Positions 5,513 through 29,910 of a stretch of 34,240 nucleotides of DNA are shown here, one piece after another (within the stretch, counting starts at the first letter, position 1; each line of letters starts with the position of its first letter). The translations under genes were made by a program, and so were the position numbers. The notes under the pieces were generated by a model, which ran no database searches, had not been told where the DNA came from, and was given only the letters and a program-made list of their open reading frames with translations. This DNA comes from a virus: IMG/VR virus record IMGVR_UViG_3300023116_000157, positions 1-34,240 of that record, one strand, 5' to 3'.

Positions 5513-8500
5513 TATAGTTTGCTCCAATAGAGGACACCGTTACCGCCATTACCGCCTGATCGTGCTTGGTCGGATCGTGATCCACCGCCACCGCCGCCGT
5601 AGCCACCATTGCCGCCGTAGCCTTGGCCTTGAGACCTAATGTCACCACCGCCGCAAAATACACCACCATTACCTGCATAACTGGCGTATCCAGTCCCTAC
5701 ACTTAAACCACCATGACCCCCTTGTATGCCCCAAGCATCTGAGTTGTCAGTAGTACCGTTATACATGTAAGATATACCAGCAGGAAGTCCCATGATTGTT
5801 CTGACTTCATCGTTTGAGAAAACTGGACTACTACGGGTGATACCCCAAGGATTACCACCGCAATTTCCGCCAAAGGTAGAGCCTGTACCATCAGCATCGC
5901 CCGTCCCGAAGAAGTCTACACCACCACCAGAAGATTTTTGACCACCTGTTACAGAGGTATCTCCACCAGTGCGGGTGTAGTATCCTAAAAGGGTTACTAC
6001 ATTAGTGTAAACAGTAGCTGTACCCCCGTTTGCAGTACCTGATGAAGTCTGATAATGAATAGCACCATCACCACCCCTCGCAATAGCAAGAGTTGATCCA
6101 CCATAGCTAAATGTAGAGGACGTACCATCACCAGCGTTAAAACCGCCAGCCCCACCGTTACCACGGGAAAATACTAAAGAAGTAGAGCCATTCCATTCAA
6201 AGCTGAAAATAGCACAACCTGCCCCTGCCCCACCGCAACCTGTTTCATATTCGTCAGTGTCGGATGACGTTCCACCGCCACCACCACCGACCATAACAAA
6301 GACATACGCACCCGCACCATCTAATAGACTGTTGATAGTTGCGGAACTTGTAATTGCATGAAAAGGCCCACCAACTTCTGCCCGTAGGTGTGCATCTGTT
6401 GTGTTAATAATTTCACCTTGAACAGTAATATCACCACGGAAAAGGCCGTTGTTTACCTCAATGTCGCCTGTGTCACGTTCAAATCGGAAACCAGAACTAC
6501 CCGCAACAAAGTTGTCGCTTTCGATGTCATCAGTAAACTGAAATGCACCATCAGGTGTTGAAAATGTGATGGTTTCATTGTCATCAGCATCATATTCGAC
6601 TTTATACTTTGATGACCATTCCTTTACCGTTGTACTTGTCGCATCTACGCGCGGTTGCGTTTCAGCCCAACCAGAAGTCAACCCGCTAAAGCTAAGTGTC
6701 GTTTCGCTGAAGCTAGATGCACTAGGTGTGCTAGGCGACGATGCCTGTAGTGTCTGATAGTACACTTTACCAGTGTAAATTCGTGTATCTGCATCAACAC
6801 CGCTAACAGCAGCATCTGTTGTTACCGATCCAGATGCAACCGCCGTGCTTTCATTGCCTGTAAAGTCAACCGCTGTGACCCAGTAGTAGTATGTCGTACT
6901 TACACCTAAACCACCATCAACATACTTGTCTGATCCAGAAAACGCGATTGCTGTAGAGGGTTGGCTATTACTTGTGTTGCGGTAGATATTATAACCCTTC
7001 AAATCGTATAGGGTTGACGCATCACTATCTGTTGTTGGCGCAGTCCAATCAAGAGTAACAATTTTCGGCCCACCTGTAGCGGAAAGCCCCGTCACTGGCG
7101 AAGGCGCACTACTATCGCCGCCATGCGTGTAAGGTGAAGCCGCTACAAAAGTGCCACGAATGCCACTGACAGTCACGCCCCTTACGCGAACATTATACTG
7201 TGTGCCAGTTTCTAGCGGACCAATCGTTACAGATGTGTTGTCGGCTGATATTTGGGTACGCTGATAGACGGTTTCATCAACGTCCTTCCATTGCACTTCA
7301 TAATGCTCAAGAAACTTATTCGTTGCTGCCGTCCATGAAACCAAGGCTTGACCAACAAACGTACCGTCTTCCTGAATGTTACCTTTGTCAGTGACCGTAA
7401 CATTGCTTACTGACAGGTTTGCGGCAGGGTTTGTTAATGTTGTGTCATTACTTGTTATGTCGCTTTCTTCAGCCGTCCAGCTAAATGCTGCCGCTGATGT
7501 TTCGCGTAGGGTAAGCCCAACCCGTAGATCACCCGCATCACCATCATTGCGGAACTTCCAGCCAACTACCTCAAACTCTTTTGCCGACCAGCCATAACGG
7601 TCAATCGTCAAAGCGATAATGTCGCCACACTCAACTTCAAACGCTTCTAGTCCAAAATCAGCCGTGAAGGTCATCTGCTCCCGTGCGCGGAATAGCGTCA
7701 TCTTCGCTAGGCGTTGCGCTGTAGCCGCTGATGTTGTTAGTGGCAGTGCTAGGTCAAGCGCACTTTCTACGCCGTTGTCATCTGTAATGAATGACGATGA
7801 TCTTATTTCAGGATAATCTGCCCGAATGTAACCTTGGTCAGCATCGTTGAACGTACCGCGCACAATATTAAAGTTGTCACGGCGGCTATGCTTGGTGTCT
7901 AAATTAATCGGGCCGCGCAAATTGTCTAGCGTAAATGTCTTGATCGGTGACGTATATTCGCCAACCTTTACATGCCATTCTCCCTGACCCCAGAACAACG
8001 TGCCAGCGCAAGCCGTCATCATGTCGCCAAGGATGTCAGACGGGGTTTGGTCTAGGCTTATAACGCCGTTGATCTCATAGCGGTTTTCACCGCCGCTACC
8101 AGCCAAGGTGACGCTCTCATCACATGTATTAGCTGCCGTTTGGAAGTAGGCATCATTCACATCGCCTGAATTATCTAGGCCGTAGGTAGAAACAAGATAG
8201 TCACGAATGCATAACGCCGCATTTGCTGAATATGACGTTGTGGATGTGCGCGGATCGTAAACCTTCTTACCCTGCACCTTCGCAGTAAATAGCGGCACAC
8301 CTTCAGCGAAAACGTCCTGATCGTATTCCATCCGCACATAAATGTACGCAATACCTTCACCCTTAAAGTCAGATGTAACTGATGTTTCGCTAACTAGATC
8401 ATTGTCTGCCGTCTGGTTATCTGCGCCTAAATGCTTCTTTATGCGGATTTTACTGTTCCACTTAGCGTCAGTAACAAACCCGCTGCCGTCTAACGTGACA

Positions 8501-8916
8501 ACTTCATCGTTAATGTAAATGTCGCCAATGTCGTTCACTTCATGGCCAGCAAGCACAATAATCTGGTGCAAGTATTGGTTTGTATCGCCAGTGCTTTCGA
8601 TGAATGTAACCGTGCCGCCCTTACGGATCTCACCGTAAACGATCTGTTGTGGCGCAGTAGCTTCACGGGCGTTGACCAGTAGGCCACGCGATCCAGCCCC
8701 AAAATCTGGCTTTGGCGCAAGTGCGCGTAATGCCCATGATGTGACCGCTGTAATCGCGATGTAACCTACAACATAACCAAGGGTAACTGACCCAAAAAGC
8801 ACTGTAGAGCCTAATGCGCTGCCTAATATATAATTACCAATAGCCTGCGGCATACGCGGCACACGATCCCAATCGTTCCAGTGCTTAGTTGTGAAATCGC
8901 CTAGCCTATATTTCAT
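5512..8916 (-). CDS. J: Tail tip / central fibre protein, J-like, with Gly-rich C-terminus
   Basis: 1134 residues. A hydrophobic N-terminal segment (about 27-66) is followed by the conserved J-type core (QQIVYGEIRKGGTVTFIESTG near residue 90, GHEVNDIGDIYIND near 130). Then come two fibronectin type III-like domains (about 495-600 and 605-705, e.g. YEVQWKDVDE and YNIYRNTSN). A region with the SGFRFERDTGDIEVNN and FRGDITVQGEI motifs, typical of the J C-terminal half, is followed by about 250 residues extremely rich in glycine (GGGGGG, GYGGNGGYGGGGGG). The Gly-rich end resembles polyglycine adhesins that determine host range in other phages. It lies directly after the DUF6950-type gene, overlapping it by 4 bp, as expected for the tail-tip module. 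Confidence 0.9.
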   Translation of the reverse strand: MKYRLGDFTTKHWNDWDRVPRMPQAIGNYILGSALGSTVLFGSVTLGYVVGYIAITAVTSWALRALAPKPDFGAGSRGLLVNAREATAPQQIVYGEIRKGGTVTFIESTGDTNQYLHQIIVLAGHEVNDIGDIYINDEVVTLDGSGFVTDAKWNSKIRIKKHLGADNQTADNDLVSETSVTSDFKGEGIAYIYVRMEYDQDVFAEGVPLFTAKVQGKKVYDPRTSTTSYSANAALCIRDYLVSTYGLDNSGDVNDAYFQTAANTCDESVTLAGSGGENRYEINGVISLDQTPSDILGDMMTACAGTLFWGQGEWHVKVGEYTSPIKTFTLDNLRGPINLDTKHSRRDNFNIVRGTFNDADQGYIRADYPEIRSSSFITDDNGVESALDLALPLTTSAATAQRLAKMTLFRAREQMTFTADFGLEAFEVECGDIIALTIDRYGWSAKEFEVVGWKFRNDGDAGDLRVGLTLRETSAAAFSWTAEESDITSNDTTLTNPAANLSVSNVTVTDKGNIQEDGTFVGQALVSWTAATNKFLEHYEVQWKDVDETVYQRTQISADNTSVTIGPLETGTQYNVRVRGVTVSGIRGTFVAASPYTHGGDSSAPSPVTGLSATGGPKIVTLDWTAPTTDSDASTLYDLKGYNIYRNTSNSQPSTAIAFSGSDKYVDGGLGVSTTYYYWVTAVDFTGNESTAVASGSVTTDAAVSGVDADTRIYTGKVYYQTLQASSPSTPSASSFSETTLSFSGLTSGWAETQPRVDATSTTVKEWSSKYKVEYDADDNETITFSTPDGAFQFTDDIESDNFVAGSSGFRFERDTGDIEVNNGLFRGDITVQGEIINTTDAHLRAEVGGPFHAITSSATINSLLDGAGAYVFVMVGGGGGGTSSDTDEYETGCGGAGAGCAIFSFEWNGSTSLVFSRGNGGAGGFNAGDGTSSTFSYGGSTLAIARGGDGAIHYQTSSGTANGGTATVYTNVVTLLGYYTRTGGDTSVTGGQKSSGGGVDFFGTGDADGTGSTFGGNCGGNPWGITRSSPVFSNDEVRTIMGLPAGISYMYNGTTDNSDAWGIQGGHGGLSVGTGYASYAGNGGVFCGGGDIRSQGQGYGGNGGYGGGGGGSRSDQARSGGNGGNGVLYWSKL

Positions 8917-18490: not shown

Positions 18491-20338
18491 CTACCTATAG
18501 CCGTGCACAAAAGAGTTTTTCCTCGGCATTCCTGGCCGACGTACTGCGTGCTTCTTTTGCGATCCTACACTATTTTGCTGCTGTTTTACAACCGCCTCGA
18601 TATTTATGCCCATTACTTGTAATGCCGCCATCGCATAAACCCTACAGTCAAGAGCTTCGTTTCGCTGTCTCGTTTTGACCCACTCGCGTTTAGGTCTGCC
18701 TTTAAAATATCTCAATACCTTCTTTTCCGCAGTTAGCATACGGAAATACTCTTCTTCCCTATCAAGCGGGAAGTGACAATAACCAGGTCCAGGTTCATCT
18801 ATTTTTAATCTTGCAAATAATAATTCTTTTGCAGTATCGGTTCCAACAGGGAATAGATTAATTTTACCAATATTATTCTTACTAGGTCGACCAATAATTG
18901 GCTTGCCTTCACCACCAATACCTTTTATTGCAAATATACGACGACCTGTTCTTAACTTTACATAGTTATAGACTTGCTGCGTATAATGACCACCACTGTC
19001 GATGCATGTTGATCTAATTATCATGTCACCTTTTTCAGGATGTGTAAAGGTTTGAGATAATATAAAATCTAAGTCTTGCCACAATTGCGGCCCTGAAGGA
19101 TCGCCATAAATTTCTTCGTAATAGATCGACCAACTTTCCTCGCCTTTACCATAAGCGACGATTTCGCACGCCAAACGATCATCCTGGACGTCAACACCCG
19201 CCACCAACACAACAGCTCCAGCCGGTAACGTTTCACCAAAGTCTTCTTTGCGGTCAAATAACGAAAATTCATCTATACGCTCTCCATCTTCCTCAAATGT
19301 TTCACCCAATGTTGTATTAACCCAAGCTTTTAACCTCATGGGATCAGATTTAGACGCTAAGAAGTCACGAACAATATCTTCTAATGCAGTCCATGGAGAG
19401 TAAAGCGCAGAAATATGGAAACCCGCAGTTTTACCATCGCCCTCTGCAGTTGCTTGCCAGCGTCCGTATCTTATTGCTTGAAAGCGTTTAGCATCGCCCC
19501 AACAAGTTCCACAATGTTCGCAAATATATTCAGCTGTTGTAGGGTCGCCATTTTCCCATCTTACATTTGCCCACTTTAGCTCTTGCTCCTCACCGCAATC
19601 AGCGCACGGCACGTAATAACGCCTTTGATCGCTCTCATCATATGCAGCTTCAATGCGGGATGCACCTTTTTCAGTCGGAGTACTAACCAATATTATCTTT
19701 TTATTCCAAAAAGTAGTCGCACGCTTTTTAGCAAGGGCAATAGGATCGCCTTCAGTGCCTGCAGATAATGGGTATCTGTCGACTTCGTCGCATAAAATCA
19801 CGCGACACGGGCGAGAAGCAAGTGATGAAGGCGAATTTGCACCACATGCTGTAACATGTCCACCTGGAAACACTTTATGCAGTGTAGTATTGCCACTATC
19901 ACGCGAACGAGGATCTTTTATTTTAGCAGATAATGCTGGAGTATCCCGTATAGCAGGTGCTAATCTATCTTTCGACCATGTCTGCGCCATCTCAAGCGTA
20001 GGCTGCACAACCAACATTGGCGCTGGGTCTTGCGATATATGAAAACCGACAACATTATTAATGAGCTCTGTCTTGCCAATTTGCGCTGCAGTCATCAGCA
20101 CAACGGTTTCTATCTTTTTATCAGATACAGCATCCATCATGCCACGTTGATATTCAGCGCGTGATGTAGACCATCGCCCCGCTTCAGCAGAGCTTTCCGA
20201 TGATAATTGACGATACTCATCCGCCCACTCGCTAATAGAAAGCTTAGGCGGTGGCTTCATTGTTTCTTTTAACGCTTTATCAAGTGCTTTTTTTAATTTA
20301 GCCCTCTGCGCCTTTATTTCTGTAGCCGATAAGTTCAT
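18491..20338 (-). CDS. Terminase large subunit (GpA family)
   Basis: 615 residues. ATPase: adenine-side WADEYRQLSSESSAEAGRW, Walker A-like TAAQIGKT (83-90), Walker B VILCDE (180-185) and a coupling STP motif (219-221). A zinc-binding pair follows: CADCG (245-249) and CEHCG (273-277). The nuclease half carries GVDVQDDRLACEIVAYG with Asp383 and TCIDSGGH. This is the lambda gpA type that cuts at cos sites and drives packaging. It overlaps the small subunit gene by 41 bp, so its start relies on MNLSATEIK; a clear ribosome site is not visible and coupling is likely. Confidence 0.93.
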   Translation of the reverse strand: MNLSATEIKAQRAKLKKALDKALKETMKPPPKLSISEWADEYRQLSSESSAEAGRWSTSRAEYQRGMMDAVSDKKIETVVLMTAAQIGKTELINNVVGFHISQDPAPMLVVQPTLEMAQTWSKDRLAPAIRDTPALSAKIKDPRSRDSGNTTLHKVFPGGHVTACGANSPSSLASRPCRVILCDEVDRYPLSAGTEGDPIALAKKRATTFWNKKIILVSTPTEKGASRIEAAYDESDQRRYYVPCADCGEEQELKWANVRWENGDPTTAEYICEHCGTCWGDAKRFQAIRYGRWQATAEGDGKTAGFHISALYSPWTALEDIVRDFLASKSDPMRLKAWVNTTLGETFEEDGERIDEFSLFDRKEDFGETLPAGAVVLVAGVDVQDDRLACEIVAYGKGEESWSIYYEEIYGDPSGPQLWQDLDFILSQTFTHPEKGDMIIRSTCIDSGGHYTQQVYNYVKLRTGRRIFAIKGIGGEGKPIIGRPSKNNIGKINLFPVGTDTAKELLFARLKIDEPGPGYCHFPLDREEEYFRMLTAEKKVLRYFKGRPKREWVKTRQRNEALDCRVYAMAALQVMGINIEAVVKQQQNSVGSQKKHAVRRPGMPRKNSFVHGYR

Positions 20339-20756
20339 TAGTTGCTTCTTCTATTGCCTTATGCATTAAGTCTTGCACTTCCGTCACTGTAGCAGCTGCG
20401 TGTGCCTCCGCAGCAATCTTAGTAGGTACAGCAAAAAGCTTAGTTTTGCACTTCATAAGCTGCTCCTTAAATTCTTCAACAATCTCGCTTATATAAACAA
20501 GATCTCCGCGCTCAACTGCGTTCTCCATCTCTTTTGCATCTGCCTGCTCTTTAGCCAAGCGAGCTCTTTCTTTAGCGAGATCCAAGTTGTTTTGAGTACC
20601 TGCTCGATTACGCATATAAATAATATATTCTTTGCGCACTTCTTTTAAATCGTATTGCCCACGATCTTGCTTCGTAATGACGCCTTCTTTAATTAATTTA
20701 ATTACGTTTGAAGGCGCCATTTCAAGATGCGCCGCTATGTCCTGAACGCTAGACAT
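20298..20756 (-). CDS. Terminase small subunit (Nu1-like)
   Basis: 152 residues. An N-terminal winged-helix-type HTH (SVQDIAAHLEMAPSNVIKLIKEGVI, about 2-45) is followed by a charged helical region (LDLAKERARLAKEQADAKEME) and a C-terminal helical tail, the architecture of lambda Nu1-type DNA-recognition subunits. It binds the packaging site and presents it to the large subunit, whose gene overlaps. GAGGG lies 6 bases before the ATG. Confidence 0.85.
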   Translation of the reverse strand: MSSVQDIAAHLEMAPSNVIKLIKEGVITKQDRGQYDLKEVRKEYIIYMRNRAGTQNNLDLAKERARLAKEQADAKEMENAVERGDLVYISEIVEEFKEQLMKCKTKLFAVPTKIAAEAHAAATVTEVQDLMHKAIEEATNELIGYRNKGAEG

Positions 20757-21620: not shown

Positions 21621-21652
21621 AAAAAACCCCCACCGGTTTGCGCCGGCAGGGG
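21621..21652 (-). terminator. Rho-independent terminator
   Basis: Minus strand: CCCC, an unpaired TG, CCGG, loop CGCAAA, CCGG, T, GGGG, followed by further G and six T. It lies after the last early leftward gene (21760) and before the first late gene (21578), so it marks the border of early and late transcription. Confidence 0.85.
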
Positions 21653-28649: not shown

Positions 28650-28819
28650 CACAAAATCAGCTTAAGAAGTATATCGAATTAACAATAAGAGACTGCAAAG
28701 CAGCACGAGCAAATCAGACCGCAGCAATTACACATATTGACGCAATACATTCGCGCATGAAGCATGTGTTAGATAAGCTGGAGGAGCAAGATAAGGATGT
28801 AACAGGAGCACCCGTTTAA
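28646..28819 (+). CDS. Small helical early protein (57 aa)
   Basis: MTQNQLKKYIELTIRDCKAARANQTAAITHIDAIHSRMKHVLDKLEEQDKDVTGAPV. GAGGAG lies eight bases before the ATG. It overlaps both neighbours (TAATG with the 115-aa gene). Nearly all helix with heptad-like spacing, so a small coiled coil is likely. Function unknown. Confidence 0.6.
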   Translation: MTQNQLKKYIELTIRDCKAARANQTAAITHIDAIHSRMKHVLDKLEEQDKDVTGAPV

Positions 28820-29166
28820 TGGTTAATATGGTTGATACTTTGACGCGAGTATTAAAGCGTAAACCGACAGAAGCAGAATTAGGCAAATTTATGGAAATGA
28901 AGAGAGAGCAGGAGGGATATAAAAAGCAAAAGCTTTTTGCAAAAGAAGATCTTGCTAAAAACTTCACTAAACCACGAGAACCCAGGACGCCTAAAGCCGT
29001 AAAAGAATATCAATATAAATGGCCTAAGCGTGCATCGCAAAATGCATTGAGGATTAATCGCATGCTCCATCTAAAAATGACGATCGCAAATATATCATAT
29101 GTTTTAGATGTGGGTGAAAATATTGTGATTGCCGAAATAAAGAAGTGGCAATTGCCACAAAAATGA
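28819..29166 (+). CDS. Unknown early protein (115 aa)
   Basis: MVNMVDTLTRVLKRKPTEAELGKFMEMKREQEG, then a basic helical stretch (KKQKLFAKEDLAKNF) and a C-terminal part with MLHLKMTIANISYVLDVGENIVIAEIKKWQL, which looks like a degenerate HTH (MTIANISYVLDVGENIVIAEIKKW). It could bind DNA. The net charge is basic. It is followed by the structured RNA element, so it may end the first part of the operon. No certain family. Confidence 0.62.
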   Translation: MVNMVDTLTRVLKRKPTEAELGKFMEMKREQEGYKKQKLFAKEDLAKNFTKPREPRTPKAVKEYQYKWPKRASQNALRINRMLHLKMTIANISYVLDVGENIVIAEIKKWQLPQK

Positions 29167-29170
29167 GTTT

Positions 29171-29241
29171 CGTGTGGGTCGGGCTAGGGACGGAAAATAG
29201 GCTTAGCAAAGTGGCTGGGAGGAGCCACACCGACCCACGCG
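29171..29241 (+). ncRNA. Three-way-junction RNA element
   Basis: A 12-bp outer stem pairs 29171-29182 with 29230-29241 (CGTGTGGGTCGG with CCGACCCACGCG, one G-T wobble). Inside, helix P2 pairs 29183-29188 with 29202-29207 (GCTAGG with CTTAGC, one wobble) and helix P3 pairs 29211-29216 with 29223-29228 (GTGGCT with AGCCAC, loop GGGAGG). Single-stranded AAA and A join them. It fills the 106-bp gap between two small genes of a very compact operon. An ATATTTTTA stretch follows, so it could double as a terminator. Not a tRNA or hammerhead. Confidence 0.6.
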
Positions 29242-29272
29242 ATATTTTTAACGCATCCAGGAGCGTAATGAA

Positions 29273-29500
29273 ATGGAATATTTCTTCTTATTAGTTTTAG
29301 AATATGAGATAAATGGTGGGTGGATGCGCAGTAGGTTTATTTTACCAAATGCAGCAGCATGCCAACATGCTATTCGCGCAAATGAAGATTTAGCTACTTC
29401 TCTTAATGCAAATCTTTATTGTATTGAAACGGATGTGCCATCTACGATTATAGAACGTAATACATCACCGCGCCCAAGGTTACGCCCAACAGACTTTTAA
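29273..29500 (+). CDS. Small membrane-anchored or exported protein (75 aa)
   Basis: MEYFFLLVLEYEINGGWMRSRFILPNAAACQHAIRANEDLATSLNANLYCIETDVPSTIIERN, then basic Pro-rich end. The N-terminal YFFLLVL stretch is short and hydrophobic; Cys30 and Cys50 are spaced as in the 54-aa protein at 30996-31160. AGGAG lies upstream. Small proteins with this layout (hydrophobic start, two cysteines) are frequent in phages; function unknown. Confidence 0.62.
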   Translation: MEYFFLLVLEYEINGGWMRSRFILPNAAACQHAIRANEDLATSLNANLYCIETDVPSTIIERNTSPRPRLRPTDF

Positions 29501-29556
29501 CTCAGATAAAAATGAGGTATTCTTTCTTTGTGTAGCCAACACAAGAAGGAGCCTCT

Positions 29557-29910
29557 TTGCCTTATAAAGACAAAGAGAAAGCGAAAGCTTATCATAAATC
29601 TTATGGCGCGTCCTGGTATAAGCGCAATCGCGAAGTTAGTCTGCAAAGAAGCAGTAAGCGCAAGAAACAAGAAAGAGCAAAGTTTCAGAAGTTTAAAGCG
29701 GGCCTTGCCTGCTTTTTTTGTGACTTCTCGCATCCCGCGGTAATAGAATTCCACCACCCCGAGGCAGCTGGAGAAACAAAAGTTGGCAAATTAGTTTCTC
29801 AAGGTTCATTTAAAAAAGCTTATGCGGAAGCGGAGAAATGTATACCATTATGCGCGAATTGCCACCGAATATATCACTACCAGGAAAGGGAAGGCGCAAA
29901 GGAAGCCTAG
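29557..29910 (+). CDS. HNH endonuclease
   Basis: 117 residues from a TTG start (AAGGAG five bases before). Basic helical N-terminus (PYKDKEKAKAYHKSYGASWYKRNREVSLQRSSKRKKQERAKFQKFK), then zinc-type CFFC (52-55), EFHHPE (His pair) and PLCANCHRIYHY (second CxxC with HNH His). This is a compact HNH nuclease. Such enzymes nick or cut phage DNA, help packaging at cos sites, or are homing enzymes. Its stop shares CTAG with the opposing endolysin stop. Packaging help is inferred, not shown. Confidence 0.85.
   Translation: MPYKDKEKAKAYHKSYGASWYKRNREVSLQRSSKRKKQERAKFQKFKAGLACFFCDFSHPAVIEFHHPEAAGETKVGKLVSQGSFKKAYAEAEKCIPLCANCHRIYHYQEREGAKEA

Follow-up and report, generated by a model that had tools for sequence, protein, structure and literature searches.

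The window is the whole stretch of DNA analysed here, a complete virus record of 34,240 nt. A structured element lies in it within a rightward operon of early type, a setting that had been proposed for the element beforehand and is supported. The features of the locus are as follows.

28819–29166, plus strand: upstream gene from the ORF list, encoding a 115-aa DNA-binding-like protein with an HTH-like C-terminal motif (HTH recognised by eye, not by domain search)
29171–29182, plus strand: 5′ arm of the closing stem, CGUGUGGGUCGG (feature-table sequence CGTGTGGGTCGG), from predicted folds and conservation in six lineages as TCGTGYGGGNC
29183–29207, plus strand: inner hairpin 1, from predicted folds, with a sequence unconserved in other lineages
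29211–29228, plus strand: inner hairpin 2, from predicted folds; the segment GGGAGGAG occurs again in contig L062
29230–29241, plus strand: 3′ arm of the closing stem, CCGACCCACGCG, from predicted folds and substitutions paired with the 5′ arm
29242–29252, plus strand: U-rich 3′ flank, ATATTTTTAAC, from the alignment, pattern scans and U-tract table
29273–29500, plus strand: downstream gene encoding a 75-aa ‘MEYFF’ protein, with homologues found and no match in the PHROG comparison
29557–29910, plus strand: HNH endonuclease gene, the final gene of the operon (PHROG match, E 9.8e-21)

The element starts 4 nt past the stop codon of the upstream gene and ends 31 nt ahead of the MEYFF gene. Between the stop at 29166 and the start of the next gene at 29273 lie 106 nt. 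This gap had been described as the only sizeable one of the operon; it is the largest, but there is another of 56 nt at 29501–29556. This second gap, just ahead of the HNH gene, contains two short inverted repeats, CTCAGATAAAAATGAG and TTGTGTAGCCAACACAA. Convergent lysis genes come after the HNH gene. Homologues of the upstream gene occur in L062, in L008 and in Roseobacter phage CRP-406. MEYFF-type small proteins are recurrent in these phages (window 29273–29500, L026 1929–2147, L094 3176–3409) and have a conserved RP.LRP-like tail at the end, and the gene also occurs without the RNA element, for example in Roseobacter phage CRP-738. In L062 (reverse complement, 8188–8860) the element is followed by a truncated MEFF-type ORF and, about 0.4 kb further on, by a second, full-length copy, an apparent duplication with decay. 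Elsewhere in the window, the minus strand carries a strong hairpin at 21652–21627 that looks like an ordinary terminator and has six T after it.

The minimum free energy structure computed for 29160–29260 (−44.0 kcal/mol, z −6.1) is the same as that of the original prediction, a 12-bp stem enclosing two 6-bp helices with the junctions AAA and A. The closing stem has 12 pairs, including one U.G. Inner hairpin 1 is stacked directly onto it and consists of six pairs, one of them G.U (29183–29188 with 29202–29207, GCUAGG/CUUAGC), and a 13-nt loop. The junction AAA occupies 29208–29210 and the junction A is 29229. Inner hairpin 2 has six pairs (29211–29216 with 29223–29228, GUGGCU/AGCCAC) and the loop GGGAGG. 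The segment 29168–29245 folds at −42.5 kcal/mol on the plus strand (z = −7.0), and 0 of 200 shuffles were equally stable; its minus strand is likewise stable (−31.2 kcal/mol, z −5.4). A covariance-model search found a single copy of the element across the whole window. We considered a mobile hairpin as the main idea and rejected it, since the element keeps one niche type and one copy.

Relatives of the element were placed in two subfamilies. The window's own subfamily comprises six independent lineages. Several alignments are of poor quality in the interior, and the E-values of the models are approximate. L002 and L003 are near-identical to the window, and L004 has ~93% identity over the region with zero changes from the upstream stop codon, via the element, into the MEYFF gene. 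The subfamily beyond near-identical contigs consists of L062, L008, L096, L063 and L139/L144/L145. L062, whose exonuclease is 90% identical, carries a more diverged copy in the gap after the homologous upstream gene. L008, found in a search with the MEYFF protein, has the arms TCGTGTGGG.CG and CG.CCCAC as in the window, at an unchanged position. L096 and L063 were recovered by an exonuclease-alignment scan of viral contigs together with a MEYFF profile, and L139, L144 and L145 by scanning with the 3′ arm and flank. These elements follow a gene of the early operon, in most cases one that by eye ends in an HTH-like motif, and precede a small MEYFF-type gene; the ORF upstream of the L096 element looks by eye like a membrane peptide. 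The 5′ arm starts 0–5 nt past the stop codon, and a U-rich 3′ flank was found in all six lineages. Besides the basal stem, members of the subfamily have kept AATCG as 5′ flank (TTTCG in the window) and U-rich sequence on the 3′ side.

The alignments indicate that the element is real, with a basal stem conserved through compensating mutations in distant relatives. Three of 13 closing-stem pairs were altered on both sides, in 6 cells, and none of 500 shuffles reached this number of cells or the covariation score. Slid controls all remained below the paired-change values of the closing stem. Among relatives the innermost pair is C-G, G-C, U-A or A-U, the third-innermost counted pair is U-A, A-U or C-G, and another is G-C or A-U. 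Seven pairs are invariant and therefore uninformative for covariation, and mismatches are also present, chiefly C.A at three positions. The original prediction had asked for paired substitutions in all three helices; the closing stem has them. The sequence of inner hairpin 1 is unconserved in other lineages. Closing-stem cells pair in 68 of 78 cases on the early strand and in 72 of 78 on the opposite strand, and folding energies across members are mixed between strands. The RNA strand is therefore ambiguous. Inverted half-sites in DNA would give the same paired changes, so DNA half-sites are still compatible with the covariation test.

The interior of the element behaves differently from its basal stem. 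It is 47 nt long in the window and about 47–85 nt among relatives, and its sequence has little in common outside the L008/L096/L139 group. The L062 interior forms one nested arm and not a three-way junction, and a junction is unconvincing in L139 as well, where the fold is no more stable than shuffles (z −0.5/−1.2). The alignments therefore do not bear out the proposal that the three-way junction is the functional design, the interior varying in length, sequence and shape; they indicate that the conserved design of the first subfamily is the basal stem. A striking junction in a single genome may be incidental, and here the conserved basal stem was revealed only through comparison.

The second subfamily includes 12 contigs (L076, L087, L105, L108, L112, L114, L117, L122, L129, L132, L133 and L134) whose arms are GAGGGGCGC/GCGCCCCTC or variants of these. 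In the early-strand alignment the element is a clean three-way junction; both partners have changed at 6 of its 28 pairs, and the inner helices covary. One inner hairpin, with the motif GACTGCGCYACGGC, a bulged A and a 5-nt loop, is retained in the divergent L132 and L087. On the late strand the inner motif reads AGCCGTAGCGCAGTCTGAT and resembles a tRNA D-arm (L134 4026–4107, L133 2765–2864, L105 2728–2827 and others); the same region on the early strand is the hairpin with the bulged A. The tRNA resemblance was rejected after a search found no tRNA. A covariance model built from the first subfamily only (R2) was used to search 856 kb; up to E 5 its only matches were its own members and elements of the second subfamily, the best of the latter being L134 (E 0.00045). 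The two subfamilies are therefore likely homologous members of one family; homology is graded as likely and not as proven because the reverse model (R1) did not recover the window. R2 matched the second subfamily on both strands, and the flank similarity suggests that the element has been turned around with respect to its neighbouring gene from one subfamily to the other.

No catalogued counterpart emerged. The original prediction knew of no named phage RNA of this kind, and in agreement with this no Rfam 15 family matched at the gathering score; at a relaxed E-value the best chance match had E 0.69. ARAGORN found no tRNA or tmRNA, and no description of the element was found among the papers searched. 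Two-arm pattern scans of viral contigs gave mostly chance matches in coding sequence, with real ones only in the window's group and L008, and when 85k bacterial and archaeal genomes were scanned with the 3′ arm, 21 matches resulted, none with a convincing 5′ arm. BLAST of the locus or element against phage and plasmid collections returned nothing, or a single match in a gut phage that was attributed to chance. The cultured Roseobacter phages CRP-821, CRP-823, CRP-831 and CRP-811 have another gene at that place, and the structure of a 250-nt gap in CRP-406 is no better than chance (z −0.6). A generic stem scan across all relatives returned about 950 stems, mostly in coding DNA.

We tentatively read the element as a transcript-boundary hairpin that acts in cis in this phage group, a partial terminator and/or 3′-end barrier, with a probability of roughly 45%. 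This reading is based on its strand-symmetric stability, its constant position at a boundary directly after an early-operon gene, a conserved stem with a disposable interior, and the U-rich flanks. The long G+C-rich basal stem is predicted to form once transcription of the early operon passes the upstream gene. It might then act as a barrier by partial termination aided by the weak U-rich flank, and/or it might block 3′–5′ exonucleases and so set the 3′ end of the early mRNA. In either case the MEYFF and HNH genes downstream would be expressed less. A processing site, one of the roles listed in the original prediction, or another 3′-end role is still plausible. Since the stem folds on both strands, it might also insulate against leftward late transcription, as at convergent operons. 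In L133 and L134 the element fills the space where late and early genes converge, and in the relative L094 this late/early gap is occupied by a terminator-like hairpin of the ordinary kind, which has a T-run. A 3′-end barrier after Rho-dependent or readthrough transcription does not need a U-tract and fits both arrangements. In the first subfamily the inner hairpins would be mostly spacer, whereas the retained hairpin of the second may carry an extra role. Because the 5′ arm of first-subfamily elements begins only 0–5 nt past the stop codon, one might also speculate that a terminating ribosome masks this arm and couples readthrough to translation. Three findings count against a boundary hairpin: several second-subfamily members lack the U-tract that a simple terminator would be expected to keep, the second-subfamily motif GACTGCGCYACGGC is conserved beyond the needs of such a hairpin, and the flanks imply opposite orientations for the two subfamilies with respect to the neighbouring gene. 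The element is a new sequence family, probably with an ordinary function, and an added regulatory role is possible, above all in the second subfamily.

Such a role would be central if the element were a protein-binding RNA, in which the arms and the bulged second-subfamily hairpin bind the adjacent HTH-type product or a transcription/antitermination factor and control the early operon. The constant HTH-type neighbour in most members fits this, as do the persistence of the hairpin even in L132 and L087 and the double-sided changes at 6 of 28 second-subfamily pairs. However, the interior is unconserved within the window's own subfamily and L096 has no HTH gene directly upstream, as judged by eye, and we regard protein binding as unlikely. 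It is likewise unlikely that the conserved stem, exchangeable hairpins and adjacent HTH protein make up a new phage regulatory RNA family, limited to one Roseobacter-phage-related group, that jointly switches the end of the early operon.

The element shares the GC-rich stem of intrinsic terminators and lacks their short loop. A run of 5 T starts 3 nt beyond the stem in the window, T-runs in the first subfamily are 3–5 long, and in L076, L105, L117, L132 and L087 the longest T-run within 12 nt is ≤2 on either strand. A plain intrinsic terminator is not supported, because the U-tract is offset in the window, has a length of only three in L008 and is lacking from several members of the second subfamily; the simple-terminator option of the original prediction is disfavoured by this poor U-tract. 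A strict intrinsic attenuator, in which the stem plus AUAUUUUU ends a fraction of transcripts ahead of the MEYFF gene, is doubtful as well. The GC-rich stem followed by ATATTTTTAA with its 5-T run suits it in the window, but the 47-nt interior, the 3-nt offset and the mere AACATTTGTAA of L008 do not, and a simple terminator scan omitted the element yet reported the strong ordinary site at 21652–21627.

A DNA site seems improbable. A palindrome resembling an origin, or a pair of inverted half-sites for a phage protein (the adjacent HTH product, for example), would agree with the folding of both strands and the ambiguous RNA strand (68/78 against 72/78 cells), and paired changes in half-sites would mimic stem covariation. 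Yet the two arms are anywhere from 47 to about 85 nt apart, and half-sites leave the covarying inner helices of the second subfamily unexplained. A trans-acting small RNA, derived from the 3′-UTR or made from its own promoter, is still more improbable: the fold is compact, highly stable and located at the 3′ end of a gene, but first-subfamily members have no conserved unpaired seed and a convincing promoter of its own was not found. An antiterminator of the HK022 put type, which the original prediction had listed, is very improbable on position and architecture, since put RNAs are two stem-loops near early promoters (PMC9378689) and the element, although ~70 nt, structured and in a phage early operon, is a closed junction at 29171, ~1 kb from the operon's first ORF (28119) and near the operon's end.

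The structured element is uncatalogued; about 20 copies of it are known, a covariance model for it works, and its place in the genome is well defined. The phages that carry it are related to cultured Roseobacter phages, and its effect on early and late gene expression is therefore testable. Among known systems, the HK022 putL/putR RNA is also structured, about 70 nt long and part of a phage early transcript; it comprises two stem-loops by the early promoter, whereas the element has a single closing stem far downstream. The put RNAs act through the zinc-binding domain of the RNAP beta′ subunit to suppress termination further downstream. Prohead RNA of the phi29 type is likewise a three-way junction encoded by a phage, but the terminase genes of this phage look ordinary by eye (18491–20756) and the junction of the element is unconserved. 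Intrinsic or bidirectional terminators at convergent operons share with it a GC-rich palindromic stem, a position at an operon boundary and, in the window's subfamily, a U-rich flank; unlike them, the element has a branched or nested interior of 47–85 nt and a weak, displaced U-tract, which is absent in several second-subfamily members. REP-like or puf-type mRNA stabilisers are intercistronic or 3′-end stabilising stem-loops. The element differs from these in being single-copy, phage-group-specific and branched, but by predicted structure it resembles them as a stable stem between genes of the same operon, just past a stop codon, with no need for a U-tract.
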